From NCBI RefSeq assembly GCF_014359565.1, contig NZ_JACIZD010000016.1, positions 1-51,049 on the forward strand: 51,049 bases of DNA. The letters run 5' to 3'. A program made the translations under genes and the position numbers. Below the pieces are notes generated by a model. That model worked only from the letters and a program-made list of their open reading frames with translations, was not told where the DNA came from and ran no database searches. This stretch comes from Immundisolibacter sp. (GTDB lineage: Bacteria; Pseudomonadota; Gammaproteobacteria; Immundisolibacterales; Immundisolibacteraceae). Positions 11,440 to 51,049 of the stretch are shown in pieces (positions within the stretch are counted from its first letter, which is position 1; every line of letters begins with the position of its first letter).

Positions 11440-11634
11440 TCAGTCCAGTTCGGCGATCCAGGCCTGTTGCAGGGCTTCCAGAATCCGCTCGCCGCAGCGC
11501 TCGGGCGCGTCGTCGAAGCCGGGCAGCGCCAGCACCCAGGCGCGCAGGTCCGTGAACCGCACGGTGGCGGGGTCGACCTGCGGATAAAGCTCGGCCAGCG
11601 CCTCGGCCAGAGCCTGGCTGTCGGTCCACTTCAT
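11440..11634 (-). CDS. iscX: IscX, small acidic regulator of iron-sulfur assembly
   Basis: 64 residues that start MKWTDSQALAEALAE and contain a conserved FTDLRAWVLALPGF helix, matching IscX. It binds IscS and modulates cluster assembly. The ATG overlaps the fdx stop by 4 bp. It is the last gene of the isc operon. Confidence 0.93.
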   Translation of the reverse strand: MKWTDSQALAEALAELYPQVDPATVRFTDLRAWVLALPGFDDAPERCGERILEALQQAWIAELD

Positions 11635-11969
11635 GTGGCTTCGCGGACCTGGTTGAGGGTGTAGCGGGGGATTTCGATGGTCAGATCGGCACTGGCGATG
11701 CGCACCTGGCAGGACAGGCGTGAGTGCGCTTCCAGGCCCCAGGCCTTGCCGAGCTGGTCTTCCTCGTCGTCGCTGGCGGCGCGCAGCGAAGCGAAGCCCT
11801 GGCGCACGATGACGTGACAGGTGGTGCACACGCAGGCCTTGGCGCAGGCGTGGTCGATGGCCACGCCGTGCGCCGCCAGGGCATCGCACAGGTGGCTGCC
11901 GGTGCTGGCTTCGAAACGCGCACCCTGCGGGCACAGCTCCGGGTGCGGCAGGACGGTGACGGTCGGCAT
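11631..11969 (-). CDS. fdx: ISC-type [2Fe-2S] ferredoxin
   Basis: 112 residues of the adrenodoxin-like class with cluster cysteines in HACAKACVCTTCH and a later LSCQ. It supplies electrons for cluster assembly on IscU. The start touches the hscA stop (1-bp overlap) and the end overlaps iscX, so translation is coupled along the operon. Confidence 0.95.
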   Translation of the reverse strand: MPTVTVLPHPELCPQGARFEASTGSHLCDALAAHGVAIDHACAKACVCTTCHVIVRQGFASLRAASDDEEDQLGKAWGLEAHSRLSCQVRIASADLTIEIPRYTLNQVREAT

Positions 11970-13825
11970 CAGGGAAGCGCCGCCAGGTGCTGGCCGGTCA
12001 GGGCGGTGTGCACGGCGACATCCATGCGCCGGGCGGCGAACTCGGCGGTGACGGCGTCGAGCCCATCCATGGCGACGCGGATGGGCTCGATCCGGCCCTC
12101 GCCCAGCGCCGTGCGCAGGGTGTCCATGGCGCTGACGATGGCGCGGCGTTCGACGGCGTTGAGCAGCCGCTCGCCGTCGGCTTCCAGTGCGCGGGCGGTC
12201 GCCAGCATGATCCGTTCGCTCTCCACCGTCAGCTCGCGCAGGCGCCGCTCGTCGGCATCCTCCAGCAGATGCGCCCTGGCATCGGCCAGCATGGCGGCGA
12301 TGGTCGGCTCGTCAAGGCCGTAGGCCGGCTTGACGCTGATTTCGGCGGCCACGCCGCTGTTTTGTTCGACGGCGGCGACGCGCAGCAGGCCGTCGGCGTC
12401 GACCTGGAAGGTGACGCGCACCCGCGCCAGACCGGCCGGCATGGGCGGGATGCCGCGCAGCTCGAAGCGCGCCAGAGTGCGACACTGGTCGGCCCGCTCG
12501 CGCTCGCCCTGCAGCACCTGGATGGCGATGGCGGTCTGGCCGTCCTTGAATGTCGTGAAGTCCTGCGCGCGGGCCACCGGCAGCGTGCTGTTGCGGGGGA
12601 TGATCTTCTCGGTCAGCCCGCCCAGGGTCTCGATACCCAGCGACAGCGGAATCACGTCCAGCAGCAGCCAGTCGTCGCTGCGGTTGCCGGCCAGCGCATC
12701 GGCCTGCAGGGCGGCGCCGATGGCCACCACGGCGTCCGGGTCCAGATCCGTCAGCGGCGGGCGGCCGAAAAACTGAGCCACCGCGGCACGGATGGCCGGC
12801 ATGCGCGTGGCGCCGCCGACCAGCACCACGCCGGTCACCTCATCTGCCGTGACGCCGGCATCGCGCAGCGCCCGCCGCACCGGCGGCAGGGTGCGGGCGA
12901 CCAAATCGGCGGTCAGGGCCTCGAAGTGGCTGCGACTGAGCGTGAGGTCCAGTACCTGCCCGCCGGGCAGGCTGTGTATGACGGCAACCTCCGTGCGTTC
13001 GCTGAGCGCCTCCTTGGCCGCCCGGGCGAGGCCCAGCAGCGTCTGGCGCTGGCTGGACGTCGGCGCGTCCAGGTGCGCCTGAGCTGCCATCCAGTCGGCC
13101 ACCACATGATCGAAATCATCGCCGCCGAGCGCGGCGTCGCCATTGACCGCCAGCACCTCGAACACCCCGCCGGTAAGGCGCAGCACCGAAATGTCGAAGG
13201 TGCCGCCACCCAAATCGTAGACCGCGTACACGCCCTCGGCCGCCTGATCCAGACCGTAGGCCAGCGCCGCGGCAGTCGGTTCGGCCAGCAGGCGCAGCAC
13301 CTCGATGCCCGCCAGGCGCGCGGCATCCTTGGTGGCCTGGCGCTGCGCCTCGTCGAAATAGGCCGGCACGGTGATTACAGCGCCGACCAGCTCGCCGCCC
13401 AGGGCGGCCTCGGCGCGCTGGCGCAGGCTGCGCAGGATGTGCGCCGACACTTCGACCGGGCTCTTGACGCCGCCGGCGGTCGCGATTTGCACCATGCCCG
13501 GGGCGTCCAGCAGCCGATACGAGGGCCGGATGGCGACGTCATGCAGGCCGCGCCCCATCAGGCGCTTGACCGAGGCGATGGTGTTGGCCGGATCGTCGGC
13601 CAGGGCGGCGCGCGCCGCGGCGCCGACGCTGATCGCGCCGTCGGCGTGGTAGCGCACCACCGACGGCAGCAGGCGCGCGCCGTCGGCATCCGCCAGTACC
13701 GTCGGCAGGCCGTCGCGCACCGTGGCCACCAATGAGTGGCTGGTGCCCAGGTCGATGCCCACCGCCAGGCGATGCTGATGCGGGGCGGTGCTCTGGCCGG
13801 GCTCGGCAATCTGCAGCAGGGCCAT
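11969..13825 (-). CDS. hscA: Hsp70-type chaperone HscA
   Basis: 618 residues, full length for HscA. The ATPase domain begins with [13 protein letters not shown] and contains [12 protein letters not shown] and [11 protein letters not shown]. The substrate domain follows from about residue 390. HscA, helped by HscB, binds the LPPVK loop of IscU (present in the iscU product here) and drives cluster release. It overlaps hscB by one base. Confidence 0.96.
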
Positions 13826-14340
13826 CAGACCTGTACCTCCTCGTCGGCCTCGACCACGGCGTCGAGCAGCCGGCGCAGGAAACCGTATTCGAGCAGGCAG
13901 GCACTGGCCGTGTCGGGGCTGGCGGCGTCGAGCGCGGCGGCCAGCCGGGCCTCGCAGGCATCAAGCTGCGCCCGCAGTTCGGCGCCCAGGCGCTGCAGGG
14001 CCTCGCCATCGCCCCTGTCCCGGACGTTGTCGAGCGTTTCGTGCCAGGTCATTTGCTGCATCAGCAGGGCCGATGACGGGCGCGCCTGGCTGGCGTCGAC
14101 GCCGCGCAGCGCAAGCAGGTGGGCAGCGCGCCGCGCCGGGTCCTTGAGGATGCGATAGGCCTCGTTGATGGCCGTGGCGGCACTGAGCGCCTGCTCCTGC
14201 GCGGCGGCGGCGCCCTGCACATGGCGGTCCGGGTGGGCGCGCCGGGCGCGCTCACGGTAGGCGGCGTCGAGCTGCTCGCGGTCCAGCGCAAAGCGCTGCG
14301 GCAGGCCGAGCAGGGCGTAGAAGTCGACGGCGGCGCTCAT
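13825..14340 (-). CDS. hscB: J-domain co-chaperone HscB
   Basis: 171 residues with an N-terminal J domain ([11 protein letters not shown], then the HPD loop in RRAHPDRHV) and a C-terminal IscU-binding helical bundle. The ATG at 14340 lies 5 bp after the iscA stop and gives the family N-terminus; a longer frame to 14376 would overlap iscA. It delivers IscU to HscA. Confidence 0.94.
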
Positions 14341-14345
14341 GGCGA

Positions 14346-14669
14346 TCAGGCGCTGAAGCTCTCGCCGCAGCCGCACTCGCCGCGGGCGTTGGGATTGTTG
14401 AACTTGAAGCCTTCGTTCAAGCCCTCGCGCACGAAGTCCAGCTGCGTGCCGTCGACATGGATCAGGCTACCGGGGTCCACCAGCACGGTCACGCCGCCGC
14501 TGTGGAAGCTGAGGTCGTCCGGACTGGCCTGGTCGGCGAATTCGAGCACGTAGGACAGGCCCGAGCAGCCGCTGCTGCGCACGCCAAGACGCAGGCCGAC
14601 GCCGCGGCCGCGGTTGGCCAGGGCCTTGCTGACGTGGCGGGCGGCGGCTTCGGTGAGAGTGATGGCCAT
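14346..14669 (-). CDS. iscA: A-type iron-sulfur carrier IscA
   Basis: 107 residues with the three A-type cysteines in SSGCSGLSY and ECGCGESF. It carries clusters from IscU to target proteins. It sits between the erpA-like gene and hscB. The short N-terminus and [11 protein letters not shown] tail match IscA rather than ErpA. Confidence 0.93.
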
Positions 14670-14681
14670 GGCGGGGTGCTC

Positions 14682-15023
14682 CTAGACGGTGAAGGAACTG
14701 CCGCAGCCGCAGGTGCTGGCGGCGTTCGGGTTCTTGATGACGAAGCGCGCGCCGGACAGGTCTTCCTGGTAGTCGATTTCGGCGCCGGACAGGTACTGGA
14801 AGCTCATCGCGTCCACCAGCAGGGTGACACCGTCGCGCTCGACCGCGGTGTCGTCGTCGGCCGCCACCTCGTCGAACGAGAACCCGTACTGGAAGCCGGA
14901 GCAGCCGCCGCCGGACACGAACACGCGCAGCTTCAGCGCCGGATTGCCTTCCTCGTCCAGCAGCGTGCGCACCTTGTCGGCGGCGGCGGACGTGAACAAC
15001 AGGGGTGAGACGAGGTCGTTCAT
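14682..15023 (-). CDS. erpA: ErpA-type A-type carrier inside the isc operon
   Basis: 113 residues with [11 protein letters not shown] and STCGCGSSF. The longer N-terminus, the FQYGF motif and the [11 protein letters not shown] stretch identify ErpA. In enterobacteria erpA is a separate gene; here it is inserted between iscU and iscA (12 bp before each neighbour), giving the operon two different A-type carriers. That would suit a machine with a heavy demand for [4Fe-4S] targets such as nitrogenase. Assignment to ErpA rather than a second IscA is fairly sure. Confidence 0.88.
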
Positions 15024-15035
15024 GGCAGTCTCCTT

Positions 15036-15425
15036 TCAGGCTGGGGCGCCCTGTTTCTGGCGCAGGTCGTCGATGGCGGCGCGGATCGCATCCTCGGCCA
15101 GCACCGAGCAGTGCAGCTTCACCGGCGGCAACGCCAGTTCCTCGGCGATGGCGGTGTTCTGGATTTCGAGCGCCTGGTCGAGCGTGCGGCCCTTGAGCCA
15201 CTCGGTGACCAGCGAGCTGGACGCGATGGCGCTGCCGCAGCCGTAGGTCTTGAAGCGGGCGTCCTCGATGACGCCGTCCTCGCCGACGCGGATTTGCAGG
15301 CGCATCACATCGCCGCAGGCCGGCGCGCCGACCATGCCGGTGCCGACCTTTGGGTCGGCCACGTCCAGGCTGCCGACGTTGCGCGGGTTTTCGTAGTGGT
15401 CAAGCACGCGATCGCTGTACGCCAT
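15036..15425 (-). CDS. iscU: Iron-sulfur scaffold IscU
   Basis: 129 residues with the scaffold cysteines in APACGD, YGCGSA and LHCSVLAED, and the HscA recognition motif LPPVK. Clusters are built here from IscS sulfur. It is not the longer NifU, which has extra [2Fe-2S] and Nfu domains. Gap to iscS is 27 bp. Confidence 0.97.
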   Translation of the reverse strand: MAYSDRVLDHYENPRNVGSLDVADPKVGTGMVGAPACGDVMRLQIRVGEDGVIEDARFKTYGCGSAIASSSLVTEWLKGRTLDQALEIQNTAIAEELALPPVKLHCSVLAEDAIRAAIDDLRQKQGAPA

Positions 15426-15452
15426 GGGGAGTCTCCGGTCAGGGGTTGAAGG

Positions 15453-16673
15453 TCAATGCGAGGCCCACTCGACGCTGGCAAGGTCGACGCCTTGCTGATG
15501 CATGTCCCACAGCGGCGACAGCTCGCGCAGGCGGCCGACCTGGCTGGTCAGTTCACTGATGGCGAAATCGACTTCGGCTTCGGTCGTGAAGCGGCCCAGG
15601 CTGAAGCGGATCGAGCTGTGGGCCAGCTCGTCCGGCAGGCCCAGCGCGCGCAGCACGTAGGACGGTTCGAGGCTGGCCGAGGTGCAGGCCGAGCCGCTGG
15701 ACACGGCGATGTCCTTGATGGCCATCATCAGCGACTCGCCCTCCACGAAGGCGAACGAGAGGTTCAGGTTGTGCGGCACCCGCTGCACGGCGTCGCCGTT
15801 CAGGTGTACTTCGTCGAGGGCCATCAGGCCGTCTTTCAGACGCTGGTGCAGCGCCGCGATGCGGGCGTTGTCGTCCGCCATTTCAAGGCGCGCCAGGCGG
15901 AAGGCCTCGCCCATGCCGACGATCTGGTGCGTCGCCAGCGTGCCCGAACGCATGCCCCGCTCGTGGCCACCGCCATGCATCTGCGCTTCCAGGCGAACGC
16001 GCGGCTGGCGGCGCACGTACAGCGCGCCGATGCCCTTGGGGCCATAGGTCTTGTGGGCCGAGAACGCCATCAGGTCGACCGGCAGGGTGGACAGATCGAT
16101 CGCCACCTTGCCGGTGGCCTGTGCCGCGTCGACATGAAACAGCACGCCCCGCTCGCGGCACAGCGCGCCCAGGGTGGCGATGTCCTGCACCACGCCGATC
16201 TCGTTGTTGACCAGCATCACCGACGCCAGCACGGTGTCCGGGCGCAGCGCGGCGGCGAAACGGTCCGGGTCCAGCAGGCCGTTGGCGTCCGGCGACAGGT
16301 ACGTCACCTCGAAGCCCTGGCGCTCGAGCGCCCGCATGCTGTCGAGGACGGCCTTGTGCTCGGTGGTCACCGTCACCAGGTGCCGGCCGCGGTCCTGATA
16401 GAACTGCGCGGCGCCCTTGATGGCCAGGTTGTCCGACTCGGTGGCGCCGGAGGTCCAGACGATCTCGCGCGGCTCGCAGCCGACCAGCGCCGCCACTTCG
16501 GCGCGCGCCTCGACCACCGCTTCCTCGGCCACCCACCCAATACGGTGCGAGCGGCTGGCCGGGTTGCCGAAATGCTGCCCAAGATAGGGCAGCATCCGGG
16601 CCACCACCCGCGGGTCGACCGGTGTGGTGGCGGCGTAGTCCAGATAAACCGGAAGTTCGAGCATGGTGTGCAT
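15453..16673 (-). CDS. iscS: Cysteine desulfurase IscS
   Basis: 406-residue PLP enzyme that takes sulfur from cysteine. N-terminal [19 protein letters not shown] lysine in [11 protein letters not shown], and the mobile-loop active cysteine in [14 protein letters not shown], as in group I IscS. Two nearby starts exist, 16673 and 16664; AAGGCGG lies upstream of both and its spacing does not settle the choice. It is the first gene of the isc operon. No iscR precedes it. Instead a sigma-54 promoter lies about 57 bp upstream and a NifA site beyond it, divergent from nifA. Confidence 0.96.
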
Positions 16674-16729: not shown

Positions 16730-16744
16730 GCAAGCCGTGTGCCA
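16730..16744 (-). promoter_or_regulatory. Sigma-54 promoter of the isc operon
   Basis: Reading leftward the site is TGGCAC-ACGGC-TTGC, a perfect match to the -24/-12 consensus with GG and GC spaced by ten bases. The predicted start falls near 16719, about 46 bp before iscS. The NifA site at 16829-16844 lies 85 bp upstream of the -24 box. Seen directly; activity is inferred. Confidence 0.85.
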
Positions 16745-16828
16745 GCCTCCGGCGGGCGGGCTAAGCGGCTGAATATGAAGCGATCACCAATGCCGGGGCG
16801 GCGGTACGGATGGGCCGTCTGTCGGCTT

Positions 16829-16844
16829 TGTCGCGTTGGCTACA
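16829..16844. promoter_or_regulatory. NifA upstream activator site shared by isc and nifA
   Basis: TGT-N10-ACA (TGT CGCGTTGGCT ACA). It lies 85 bp from the isc -24 box and 87 bp from the nifA -24 box, so one NifA dimer site can serve both divergent sigma-54 promoters. I found no second match in the interval. Confidence 0.8.
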
Positions 16845-16930
16845 GGTCATGTGCGGGCTGTCTGGCCAGGGCCCCGGGTGGATTGCCGTGCGCCTGCCGT
16901 CGATGCGCGGTGGTGGCGATTTCCCGCGGC

Positions 16931-16946
16931 TGGCACCCGTATTGCA
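16931..16946 (+). promoter_or_regulatory. Sigma-54 promoter of nifA
   Basis: TGGCAC-CCGTA-TTGCA, a perfect -24/-12 match. Predicted start near 16957, about 57 bp before the nifA start. With the upstream NifA site this implies autoactivation. Confidence 0.88.
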
Positions 16947-17013
16947 TGCTTTGAACTGGTGACAACGCCCGCGCCCTGGCGGGTGGATACCCAATTCCTG
17001 CCGAGGTATGCCC

Positions 17014-18657
<1,644 letters not shown>

Positions 18658-34680: not shown

Positions 34681-34902
34681 ATGGCCGCGGATGAAACGAT
34701 GATTCACGTGCGCTTCGCCCCGGACGGCACCGTCACCGAGATCGGCGCCCGCCCGGCCGGTCTTGGCGCACAGGACTGGTTCAACCTGCTCAGCGAGGTC
34801 GCCGGGCAATACTTTGCCGCCCTGTCCGGCGGGCGCGGCCTGTTTCGCCTGCCACCGGCGGCGCTGGGCGCCGTGCAGGCCAAACTGGACGAGGCCGCCT
34901 GA
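34681..34902 (+). CDS. Small nif-operon protein of unknown function
   Basis: 73 residues: MIHVRFAPDGTVTEIGARP, then WFNLLSEVAGQYFAALSGGRG and LFRLPPAALG. Compact alpha/beta protein, no cysteine, no known motif. Start ATG 34681 or, less likely, 34699. Its stop shares a base with the start of the SIR2-like gene, so the two are coupled and probably work together. Confidence 0.65.
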   Translation: MAADETMIHVRFAPDGTVTEIGARPAGLGAQDWFNLLSEVAGQYFAALSGGRGLFRLPPAALGAVQAKLDEAA

Positions 34903-35753
34903 TGGACACCGCCGTCGCCGCCGTGCTGGCCGGCCTGTCTGCCGGACAGGTGGTGCCTTACCTTGGCCCCGGCGTGCTGGCGCTGGCCGGCCCGGCCTGC
35001 CCGCTGCCGGCCTCGCCACAGGCACTGGTCAAGCACCTGACGGCCAAGGCCAGCGTGCCGCACAAGCTGCTCGGCAACCTCACCGCGGCGGCGCAGTTCA
35101 TCGAGAACTTCAAGCACCGCAAGACCGTCGCCGCCGCCATGCGCGAGGCCTTCGCCCCGGCCGTCGCGCCCACGGCGCTGCACCGGTTGCTGGCGGATAT
35201 CGCCGGCCTGCCGCTGATCGTGCACGCCTGGTACGACGACCTGCCGCAGCGGGCGCTGGCCGGCCGGGGCGACTGGGGCATGGTGCAGGGCGTCAGCCAG
35301 GCCGAGCATCAGGGCGTCTGGTGTCACCATTTCGACGCCGCGGGCACCCTTACCACCCCCGAGGCGGCCGGCGCCTGGACCACGCTGCTGTACCAGCCGC
35401 TGGGCTCGGTGGCGCCGGCCGGCAATTTTCTGGTGTCCGATTCGGACTTCGTCGAGGTGCTGACCGAAATCGACATCCAGACGCCGATCCCGGCCGAGGT
35501 GCAGCGCCGCCGCGCCGGGCGGCAGTTCCTGTTCCTGGGCTGCCGCTTCGACGACCAGCTCGGCCGCACCTTTGCCCGCCAGGTCATGAAGCGCTCGTCG
35601 GACCAGCACTACGCGGTGTTGCCGGAAACACCCAGCCGCAACGAGGCGCGCTTTCTGGCGCAGCACGGCATCGAGGTGCTGGCGCTGTCGCTGGCCGACT
35701 TCACAGCCTGCCTGGCCGGTGAGGCAATGCCGGCACAGGCGCTGGCTGGCTGA
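34902..35753 (+). CDS. SIR2-like domain protein in the nifB operon
   Basis: 283 residues. PYLGPGVLAL near the N-terminus is in the place of the NAD-binding glycine loop, and FLVSDSDFVEVL, IP, LFLGCRFDDQLGRTF match the tail of SIR2-type (SIR2_2) domains. The usual catalytic histidine motif is not clear (CHHFDAAGTL may hold it). Family members cleave or bind NAD; several act in defence. Being last in a nif operon suggests sensing of NAD or ADP-ribose linked to nitrogenase, which is inference. It ends in a palindrome (CTGAGCCGGCTCAG) shared with the convergent gene. Confidence 0.75.
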   Translation: MDTAVAAVLAGLSAGQVVPYLGPGVLALAGPACPLPASPQALVKHLTAKASVPHKLLGNLTAAAQFIENFKHRKTVAAAMREAFAPAVAPTALHRLLADIAGLPLIVHAWYDDLPQRALAGRGDWGMVQGVSQAEHQGVWCHHFDAAGTLTTPEAAGAWTTLLYQPLGSVAPAGNFLVSDSDFVEVLTEIDIQTPIPAEVQRRRAGRQFLFLGCRFDDQLGRTFARQVMKRSSDQHYAVLPETPSRNEARFLAQHGIEVLALSLADFTACLAGEAMPAQALAG

Positions 35754-47588: not shown

Positions 47589-49148
47589 ATGAGCCAGAAC
47601 GCCGACAACGTGGTCGATCATTTCAACTTGTTCCGGAGTCCGGAATACGTGGATATGTTCAAGACCAAGAAAGAAAACTTCGAAAACGCCGAACCCACCG
47701 ACCGGGTCGAGGAAATCCGCGAGTGGACCAAGACCTGGGAATACCGGGAAAAGAACTTCGCCCGCGACTCCCTGACCGTCAATCCGGCCAAGGCCTGCCA
47801 GCCGCTGGGCGCGGTGTTCGTGGCGGTCGGCTTTGAAAGCACGCTGCCGTTCGTGCACGGTTCGCAGGGCTGCGTCGCCTATTACCGCAGCCACTTCAGC
47901 CGTCACTTCAAGGAACCCAGTTCCTGTGTGTCGTCCAGCATGACCGAGGACGCGGCGGTATTCGGCGGCCTGAACAACATGATCGACGGCCTGGCCAATG
48001 CCTACAGCATGTACAAGCCCAAGATGATCGCCGTGTCCACCACCTGCATGGCCGAGGTGATCGGCGATGACCTGAACGCCTTCATCAAGAACGCCAAGGA
48101 AAAGGGCTCGGTGCCGGAAGAATTCGACGTGCCCTTCGCCCATACCCCGGCCTTCGTCGGCAGCCACATCACTGGCTACGACAATGCGCTGCTGGGCGTG
48201 ATCAAGCACTTCTGGGACGGCAAGGCCGGCACCGTGCCGGTGCCCGAGCGCGTGCCGAACGAGAAGATCAACTTCGTGGGCGGTTTCGACGGCTACACCG
48301 TCGGCAACCAGCGCGAAATCAAGCGCATCTTCGACCTGATGGGCATCGAATACACCATGCTGTGCGATGCATCGGACGTGTGGGACACGCCCACCGACGG
48401 CGAATTCCGCATGTACGACGGCGGCACCACGCTGGAAGACGCTGCCGCCGCGCTCAACGCCAAGGCGACGGTTTCCATGCAGGAATACTGCACCACCAAG
48501 ACGCTGGAGTTCTGCGCCAGCAAGGGCCAGGAAACGCTCGCCTTCAACCACCCAGTCGGCGTCGCCGGCACCGACCAGTTCCTCATGGAAATCGCCCGCC
48601 TGACCGGCAAGGCCATCCCGGAGGCACTCGCCAAGGAACGCGGCCGGCTGGTGGACGCCATCGCCGATTCCAGCGCCCACATCCACGGCAAGAAGTTCGC
48701 AATCTACGGCGATCCGGACCTGTGCTATGGCCTGGCGTCCTTCCTGCTGGAACTGGGCGCCGAACCCACGCACGTGCTGTCCACCAACGGCGGCAAGGAG
48801 TGGGAGGCCAAAATGCAGGCGCTGTTCGACAGCTCACCCTTCGGCAAGGGCTGCCATGCCTACGCCGGCAAGGACCTGTGGCACATGCGCTCGCTGCTGT
48901 TCACCGAGCCGGTCGACTTCCTGATCGGCAACACCTACGGCAAGTACCTGGAGCGCGACACCGGCACGCCGCTGATCCGCATCGGCTTCCCGGTGTTCGA
49001 CCGCCACCACCACCACCGCTACCCGGTGTGGGGCTACCAGGGCGCGATGAACGTCCTGGTGTGGATCCTGGACAAGATCTTCGACGAGATCGACAAGAAC
49101 ACCATCGTGCCGGCCAAGACCGACTACAGCTTCGACATCATTCGCTAG
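47589..49148 (+). CDS. nifK: NifK, nitrogenase MoFe protein beta chain
   Basis: 519 residues. P-cluster cysteines C70, C95 and C153 fall at the same numbers as in Azotobacter vinelandii, and the P-cluster serine lies in [11 protein letters not shown]-terminal extension of about 55 residues is complete. The C-terminus [14 protein letters not shown] matches the family. AGGAG precedes the ATG. A strong terminator follows, so nifT, nifY and nifEN do not follow nifK as they often do. Confidence 0.99.
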
Positions 49149-49165: not shown

Positions 49166-49203
49166 AAAAGGCCGCGCAGCGCGAACTGCGCGGCCTTTTT
49201 TTG
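49166..49203 (+). terminator. Rho-independent terminator after nifHDK
   Basis: A perfect 14-bp stem (AAAAGGCCGCGCAG / CTGCGCGGCCTTTT) with a 6-nt loop, running into further T. It separates nifHDK from the next nif-regulated unit. Confidence 0.93.
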
Positions 49204-49277
49204 TCGTCGCCACATCCCCGAAGCGCGGGAAAGCGCCTTGGAAATGTCCGGCGCGTCACTGCGGCATCCATGCCGCC

Positions 49278-49293
49278 TGTCACAGGCGCGACA
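49278..49293. promoter_or_regulatory. NifA upstream activator site of the post-nifK unit
   Basis: TGT-N10-ACA (TGT CACAGGCGCG ACA), 73 bp upstream of the -24 box at 49366. Confidence 0.75.
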
Positions 49294-49365
49294 AACGCGA
49301 CACAGCCCAGGTTCCCGGGCGCTCGACATGTCCCTGAAACGGCGTGAATTACAGCCTGTGCGGAC

Positions 49366-49381
49366 TGGCCCGGGCGTTGCT
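49366..49381 (+). promoter_or_regulatory. Sigma-54 promoter of the post-nifK unit
   Basis: TGGCCC-GGGCG-TTGCT. GG and GC are correctly spaced; one -24 base differs from TGGCAC. Predicted start near 49392, about 30 bp before the gene at 49423. Confidence 0.75.
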
Positions 49382-49422
49382 TTGCAAGCTCAGGCTCCCC
49401 ACCGGTCGCAACTCCCACGCCC

Positions 49423-49746
49423 ATGGACACGTCAAGGACACCGATCAAGCTGACCCAGGACGGCCGCCGAGTAGAAGTGGTCGGCCGTGCCATCTGTCTC
49501 GATGGCCGCCGCGAGGCGGACGCCCTGACGCCGGTGCACCGGCACCCGAACCGCGCCGCCATCTGGCGGGCGGTGCCGGATGCCACCCACATGGCCGGCC
49601 GGGTGCCGCTCACCGCCCAGGAAGCGGCCCAGGCCCAGGCCGCACTGGACGCCGCCCGGGCGGCCTATGAAGCAAGCCCGCTGGCCATTGCGGAGCGGAT
49701 CCGCCACGCCGCGGACGACATCCTGAAGCTGCGCATCGATGAATGA
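49423..49746 (+). CDS. Unrecognised nif-regulated protein 1
   Basis: 107 residues. N-terminal half likely beta-rich (IKLTQDGRRVEVVGRAICLDG), middle HRHPNRAAIWRAVPDATHMAG, C-terminal half one long Ala-rich helix (AQEAAQAQAALDAARAAYEA). No cysteine, no membrane segment, no signal peptide. I do not recognise the family. It stands right after a sigma-54/NifA promoter pair and after the nifK terminator, so it is probably made only during nitrogen fixation. Confidence 0.8.
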   Translation: MDTSRTPIKLTQDGRRVEVVGRAICLDGRREADALTPVHRHPNRAAIWRAVPDATHMAGRVPLTAQEAAQAQAALDAARAAYEASPLAIAERIRHAADDILKLRIDE

Positions 49747-49776
49747 GGCGCCGTGCCGGCGCGTGGAGCAGGGCCC

Positions 49777-50244
49777 ATGATCCACGTACTCGAAGTGCCG
49801 CAGCAAGGCCGTGCGCAGGCGTGGTTCGCCTTCGACGAGACCGACCTGATCGGCAAGATTCGCGCCGCGCGGGCGCGGCCGGACGGGCAGCTGCATGCCG
49901 TGGCCAGCCCGCGCGAACTGCTGGCCGCCAGCGGCCAGGCGCCGGACACGGCGCCGCCCTGGATCGCGGCACTGGCGCAGCTGCACGGCTGGGACACGCC
50001 GCTGTATCGCGCCGACGCCTTGCTGGGGGAGGGGATTTATCAGGCCGAACCGGTCAGCGAGCTGCGCGCCTGCGTCGCGGCACTGGTCGACACGCTGCAG
50101 ACCTGCCGCGTGTACCCGGACGACCAGACAGCCCTCGATGCGCTGTACCGCGATCCGCTGTACCAGGGGCGCGACGGCTTCTACGCCCACATGGCCCTGC
50201 GGGAACAGCTGATCGCGCTGGAGGTGCTGGCGGATGATTTGTGA
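49777..50244 (+). CDS. Unrecognised nif-regulated protein 2
   Basis: 155 residues: MIHVLEVPQQGRAQAWFAFDE, VASPRELLAASG, YRADALLGEGIYQAEPVSELRACVAALVDTL, FYAHMALREQL. Mixed alpha/beta, acidic, cytosolic. Start 49777 was chosen for GGAGC upstream; the frame is open to 49753. It follows protein 1 by 30 bp in the same unit. No known motif. Confidence 0.78.
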   Translation: MIHVLEVPQQGRAQAWFAFDETDLIGKIRAARARPDGQLHAVASPRELLAASGQAPDTAPPWIAALAQLHGWDTPLYRADALLGEGIYQAEPVSELRACVAALVDTLQTCRVYPDDQTALDALYRDPLYQGRDGFYAHMALREQLIALEVLADDL

Positions 50245-50324
50245 ACGCACGGCGCGCCAGCGCAGGCGGCCTGCCCGCAGGCAGCGGGCCTGAACACCTT
50301 GCCCATCCGGATCGGGAGCCGCCC

Positions 50325-50768
50325 ATGAGCAGCATCTTCATCAACATCACCAAATCCGGGGCGCTGGAAAAGTCGCCCATCGACAAGGCGGTCACCCGCG
50401 TGGCCGTGGCCTTGGCCCGCCAACGCCTGCAAGGCGCCTTGCCCGCCGGCCCGAGTCTGGAGATCACGTTCCTGCTGGCGTGCGCGGACCTGCAGCCGGA
50501 TTTCGAGGGCATGCGCATGGGCGGTTACACGGCCGACGACCCGGTGCTGCGCTTCCACGCCGCCGTGCCGGCGCAGCTGGCTCACTCGACGCTGGCGCCG
50601 CGTTACGTGGCGGCGGTGCTCGATGACGTGCTCGGCAACGCCCACGACTATTTCGCCGAGCGACAAATACCCTTCGACAGCCCGGCGTGGCGCCGCGTGT
50701 TCGACGCCGCAGCCGTGCACGGCGAAGACCTCTCGGACCTGACCGAAGCGGCGCTGCCGGCGTTCTGA
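50325..50768 (+). CDS. Unrecognised nif-regulated protein 3
   Basis: 147 residues: SSIFINITKSGALEKSPIDKAV, SLEITFLLACADLQPDFEGMRMGGY, HAAVPAQLAHS, and a helical C-terminus. Cytosolic, with a single cysteine. Start 50325 has GGGAG. It follows protein 2 by 80 bp, with no terminator seen between, so is probably co-transcribed. Family not recognised. Confidence 0.78.
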   Translation: MSSIFINITKSGALEKSPIDKAVTRVAVALARQRLQGALPAGPSLEITFLLACADLQPDFEGMRMGGYTADDPVLRFHAAVPAQLAHSTLAPRYVAAVLDDVLGNAHDYFAERQIPFDSPAWRRVFDAAAVHGEDLSDLTEAALPAF

Positions 50769-50809: not shown

Positions 50810-50875
50810 GATTCGGCCCGAGGGCGGGCCTCCCACGGGCGCTGTGTTGTGGGAGCGGCGCCCTCGCCGCGAATC
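50810..50875. repeat. REP-type inverted repeat pair
   Basis: GATTCGGCCCGAGGGCGGGC with CCTCCCAC on the left faces GTGGGAGCGGCGCCCTCGCC with GCGAATC on the right across a short spacer. The GTGGGAGCGG...CGCGAATC pattern is that of REP elements common in Pseudomonas and relatives. It can fold to a long hairpin and may end transcription of the unit upstream. Confidence 0.8.
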
Positions 50876-50878
50876 TTC

Positions 50879-51049
50879 TGTCATGGTCAAGTTTCAGTGG
50901 ACACCGGGATAGGGGATTTCAGGTGGTGGCTTTCTCGTAGTCGGCCGGGGAACGGTAGCCGAGGGTGGAGTGCAGCCGGTGGGTGTTGTAGAAGCCGACG
51001 ATGTAGTGGGTGACGTCGGCGATGGCTTCGTTGGGATTGGCGTAGCGGC
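50879..51049 (-). mobile_element. End of an IS3-family insertion sequence (continues beyond window)
   Basis: The tip TGTCATGGTCAAGTTTCAGT, near 50879, has the TG end and AT/GC layout of IS3-family inverted repeats. The transposase reading frame begins 40 bp inside it. Only this end is in the window. Confidence 0.75.
50919..51049 (-). CDS. IS3-family transposase OrfB, C-terminal end (partial)
   Basis: The 43 visible residues include ADVTHYIVGFYNTHRLHSTL and YRSPADYEKATT before the stop. YN-x-x-R-x-H-x-x-L is the hallmark just after the catalytic glutamate in IS3-family integrase domains. The rest lies beyond the right edge, so I cannot tell whether the copy is intact. Confidence 0.88.
   Translation of the reverse strand, partial: RYANPNEAIADVTHYIVGFYNTHRLHSTLGYRSPADYEKATT

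Follow-up and report, generated by a model that had tools for sequence, protein, structure and literature searches.

Three protein families found almost only in diazotrophs make up a candidate NifA/sigma-54-controlled nif accessory operon in Immundisolibacter

Attempts to move nitrogen fixation into new hosts are held back by incomplete knowledge of accessory genes. NifA-controlled nif clusters encode small proteins such as NifT, NifZ, NifW and the NifX-associated DUF269, and the three small proteins analysed here, designated orf107, orf155 and orf147, likewise appear to be encoded in such a cluster; none of the three matches the NCBIfam or Pfam models for those and similar families. Accessory genes of this kind, controlled by NifA and with no assigned function, are already known, while the three families themselves appear to be new, and no description of them was found in the literature. 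Conserved NifA sites have been reported upstream of bolA in Alphaproteobacteria (PMC4999443), which fits the operons here that begin with bolA. For Methylococcus strains, genes without a known function have been noted in the nifK-nifE interval (PMC8527097); in strain EFPC2 this interval holds a 2Fe-2S protein and not the present families. On plasmid pBN1 of Paraburkholderia aromaticivorans, genes annotated as hypothetical protein follow nifK in the order nifK-orf107-orf155-nifE, which is the order of orf107 and orf155 after nifK in our locus. The plasmid differs in that its nifK-nifE stretch has no orf147 and no promoter of their own was seen for the two genes, which are apparently read with nifHDK.

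The window, by which we mean the whole 51,049-nucleotide stretch of DNA that was analysed, lies in contig C16 of a 3.09 Mb Immundisolibacter sp. genome (G000). The identities of nifH, nifD, nifK, nifA and nifB in the window were confirmed by NCBIfam. The features of the locus are:

47589 to 49148, forward strand: nifK, which closes the upstream nifHDK operon (NCBIfam TIGR01286; score 858 bits, cut-off 427)
49166 to 49206, forward strand: intrinsic terminator of nifK, a 14-pair stem (49166-49199) followed by a T run
49278 to 49293, forward strand: putative NifA upstream activator site (UAS, TGT-N10-ACA), TGTCACAGGCGCGACA, assigned by motif, with equivalents in relatives
49366 to 49380, forward strand: putative sigma-54 -24/-12 promoter (TGGC-N7-TTGC), TGGCCCGGGCGTTGC, assigned by motif, recurring in relatives
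49423 to 49746, forward strand: orf107, 107 residues, with conserved Cys25, His41 and an AGR motif
49777 to 50244, forward strand: orf155, 155 residues, with conserved HGWD, YRAD and Cys110
50325 to 50768, forward strand: orf147, 147 residues, with a conserved P-x-F-x-GMR motif
50880 to 51049 (boundary approximate), reverse strand: one end of an IS3-type element, its transposase recognised by eye

An earlier note, made from the sequence of this locus, had placed a NifA site and a sigma-54 promoter after the nifK terminator, followed by three genes for proteins of 107, 155 and 147 residues. Both sites were located, at 49278 and 49366, and the three open reading frames are present, all on the forward strand. 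The UAS and the sigma-54 promoter are 88 bp apart, and the first base of the promoter lies 57 bp ahead of the first ATG, that of orf107. Across the whole window there are five UAS/sigma-54 promoters, ahead of iscS, nifA, nifB, nifH and the three-gene operon, against a chance expectation of 0.08 pairs per window, the mean for random sequence generated by a first-order Markov model of the window. NifA is encoded in the same genome at 17008-18657 (TIGR01817; score 726 bits, cut-off 529). By promoter motif and the presence of NifA in the genome, the operon fits the NifA/sigma-54 regulon, and its dependence on NifA and RpoN is predicted. Under nitrogen-fixing conditions, NifA bound to the site at 49278 would switch on transcription from the sigma-54 promoter (49366), an induction predicted from the promoter sequence, and the three proteins would be produced together. 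As a whole, orf107-orf155-orf147 is probably a NifA/sigma-54-driven nif accessory operon.

The reality of the three genes was assessed by comparison with orthologues from a congener (G002) and three other loci. Reading frames were kept in the orthologues and dN/dS ranged from 0.17 to 0.51, which points to purifying selection on all three genes. The same evidence settles the coding strand: an antisense open reading frame at 49432-50250, favoured by GC-frame alone, was ruled out by the conservation of the forward-strand frames. On the Kyte-Doolittle scale, hydrophobicity peaks at an average of 1.26 over 19 residues, which is too low for a membrane span, and the cytosolic location proposed in the earlier note is therefore reasonable.

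None of the three proteins reaches any family cut-off in Pfam or NCBIfam, and nothing consistent emerged when all sequences in the three family alignments were scanned against Pfam. Sequence searches of the PDB, with single proteins and with profiles, gave just weak, short matches, and PADLOC and PHROGs gave weak scores alone (best 16 bits). No relatedness of orf155 to orf147 or to orf107 was detectable, no relatives of orf155 were found in viral contigs, and none of orf147 in plasmids. The predicted structure of orf147 is confident (mean pLDDT 85.2), and a Foldseek search of the PDB with this model gave no match below E 0.1. The best structural rows for the model were YbeY (UPF0054)/zincin-like folds, with a weak score (Z 5.6; 113 residues superposed at 5.5 A) of the size that common arrangements also give; membership would call for His metal ligands as well, and the orf147 family has no conserved His. 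The predicted structure of orf155 was unusable (mean pLDDT 39.9). There is one conserved Cys in orf107, one in orf155 and none in orf147. Because a chain holds at most one, none of the three looks like a classical Fe-S protein; Fe-S scaffolds and ferredoxins have several conserved cysteines in one chain, and all three proteins lack such a set. The profile searches of the three proteins and the structure search for orf147 agree with the earlier note, which could assign the proteins to no family.

Distribution was assessed relative to NifK. Among 369 genomes of the class, orf147 was found in six, the same six by a single sequence and by a 17-sequence profile, and all six lie within the 31 NifK-positive genomes (0 of the 338 others). 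The probability of this overlap is about 2e-7 by our own arithmetic, with genomes treated as independent, two of them sharing a genus. A scan of genome contigs that was blind to nif genes recovered 15 orf147 loci, and every one was in a genome with nif genes: NifK was found in 13, and a NifN-like protein alone in two MAGs of 1.8 and 2.6 Mb. The set includes a Glaciecola MAG and the MAG Ch67, in which orf147 does not adjoin nif genes on the stretch examined. A search of the 31 nif-positive genomes together with two MAGs and two plasmids recovered orf107 and orf155 from the identical seven records, always together (7/7). In a sample of the phylum (n = 289), the sole further clear match was a NifK-positive genome, G602, in which orf107 and an internally shortened orf155 sit side by side. 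Two marginal partial matches in the orf107 and orf155 searches (E 4e-4) came from genomes that lack NifK and resemble chance matches. All full-length orf107 and orf155 matches whose genome was checked belong to nif-positive genomes or nif plasmids. The three families are therefore found almost only in diazotrophs, and the case that would have spoken against the earlier note, occurrence mainly in non-diazotrophs, did not arise.

Among the 31 NifK-positive genomes of the class, orf107 and orf155 occur in five and orf147 in six. Families as sparse as these are not a general requirement of nitrogen fixation, and a distribution so patchy points to helpers that are conditional, not core. Absence from most diazotrophs would also suit genes that are nif-region passengers without part in nitrogen fixation. 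We regard this as very improbable: carriers are almost exclusively diazotrophs, the genes are under purifying selection, and a NifA-type promoter is conserved across great distance, even away from nif genes.

The conservation of the promoter was assessed with a sigma-54 site placed 25-130 bp before the start codon and a UAS 45-200 bp before the sigma-54 site. A UAS/sigma-54 pair precedes the operon or a lone orf147 at 12 of 16 testable loci, compared with a background rate of about 0.7% per position in those sequences; the sigma-54 pattern was looser than that of the window scan, and near-identical loci (the window and G002, L026 and L027) bring the number of independent tests below 16. At L038 the pair is present though orf147 is not beside nif genes. 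L029, L033 and L036 gain a pair once a single mismatch is tolerated in each site; L040 carries three exact copies of the UAS and no sigma-54 match. No such pair was seen upstream of orf107 and orf155 in genomes G143 and G175 or in P. aromaticivorans, where the two genes may be read from other promoters. Diazotroph-bound carriers, conserved gene order and a conserved promoter support the core proposal of the earlier note, that of a nif accessory operon, so far undescribed, under a NifA/sigma-54 promoter of its own. Lying outside the curated libraries searched, three families with a conserved NifA-type promoter are concrete candidates for accessory genes.

Gene order in relatives bears on what the operon may do. 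The order 107-155-147 is kept at L028 and L029, and in the congener G002 it is 107-155-147-nifE-nifN, followed by a NifX-like gene and DUF269. At L012, L026 and L027 the order is BolA-107-155-rhodanese/ankyrin-147, so that the nif-linked BolA and rhodanese share an operon with the three genes under a NifA/sigma-54-type promoter; none of orf107, orf155 and orf147 itself matches either of these two families. A homologue of the rhodanese-ankyrin gene is also present in the Immundisolibacter genome, on contig C22, about 5 kb from nifN. Since related operons start with bolA and carry a rhodanese-ankyrin gene between orf155 and orf147, iron-sulfur or sulfur handling for nitrogenase maturation or repair is the role we tentatively favour, at somewhat below even confidence. 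More broadly, and just as provisionally, the three undescribed families could represent a dedicated nitrogenase support step (Fe-S or sulfur delivery, repair, or electron-donor handling) that is absent among characterised nif genes. A function inferred from neighbours is guilt by association, and nitrogenase protection and electron supply are live rivals.

Electron supply is suggested by more distant relatives, in which orf147 is paired with a flavodoxin gene, so that orf147 may instead or also serve an electron donor. The flavodoxin gene lies directly downstream of orf147 at L032, L033, L034, L039 and probably L031, and most of these orf147-flavodoxin loci have a NifA/sigma-54-like promoter in front. 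On a further, rival reading orf147 would act in electron delivery as the partner of a NifA-controlled flavodoxin, with orf107 and orf155 as separate additions. We consider this improbable, as no flavodoxin neighbours orf147 in the lineage of the window or at L035, L036, L038 and L040, and the fold search with orf147 produced no confident match to a redox protein.

Elsewhere, orf107 and orf155 mostly sit in nif regions. Genome G143 keeps one or other of them away from nifHDK, and in Methylococcus EFPC2 both are in the plasmid nif region, at separate places. Small unassigned proteins are encoded near orf107 and orf155 in G143 (L011, 9312-9632) and G175 (L067, 10558-10842 and 12242-12694), and for the G175 pair Pfam gave no match. 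In Bradyrhizobium, an unannotated stretch (L043, 8001-8261) with about 49% identity to orf107, possibly a remnant, has a Rieske gene on one side and fdxB on the other and lies on the other strand from the nif genes.

Nodule symbionts were compared with P. aromaticivorans, whose NifK is 86-95% identical to the beta-rhizobial NifK proteins. P. sprentiae, a nodule symbiont, has a frameshifted orf107 that is split between frames and an interrupted orf155 that matches only as far as about residue 53, with other genes inserted between. Nothing related was detected in the plasmid segments downstream of nifK from P. phymatum, P. sabiae, P. phenoliruptrix and C. taiwanensis. Broken or missing orf107 and orf155 in nodule-dwelling beta-rhizobia, a small and related sample, would fit a free-living role. 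These losses, set against the intact genes in the nif cluster of P. aromaticivorans, together with a bacterial-like globin gene ahead of the operon at L028, raise the alternative that the operon shields nitrogenase from oxygen or by-products in free-living growth. We hold this to be unlikely, if worth keeping in view: the symbiont losses are few, come from related bacteria and might reflect drift, a globin gene adjoins the operon at one locus, and the proteins have no redox motif.

The operon would originally have lain between nifHDK and nifENX. In the Immundisolibacter genome of the window an IS3-type element lies between orf147 and nifE, and nifENX resumes on contig C22. A flank continuous with G002 is present both at the end of the window and on contig C22, and the end of the element is found at three contig ends. 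Contig comparison thus indicates that the element now parts the operon from nifENX. A REP-like repeat of about 64 bp follows orf147 (50811-50874), with an 86% identical copy in the nifENX region on C22. The gap between nifK and orf107 is about 270 bp in the window and about 7.8 kb in G002 (L010, 1-7100).

Other features were noted in the nif region of the window. The divergent iscS and nifA promoters (16744-16931) share one palindromic NifA site at 16829-16844, which suggests that a single site may serve NifA in controlling both nifA itself and the ISC operon. The ISC-type set at 11631-16673, behind a NifA/sigma-54 promoter, comprises IscS, IscU, two IscA-like proteins, HscB, HscA and a ferredoxin; it was assigned by eye, its counterpart being the annotated set in Methylococcus EFPC2. 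A SIR2-like protein is encoded at 34902-35753 and has relatives of 51-58% identity in the nif regions of Methylococcus and Bradyrhizobium.
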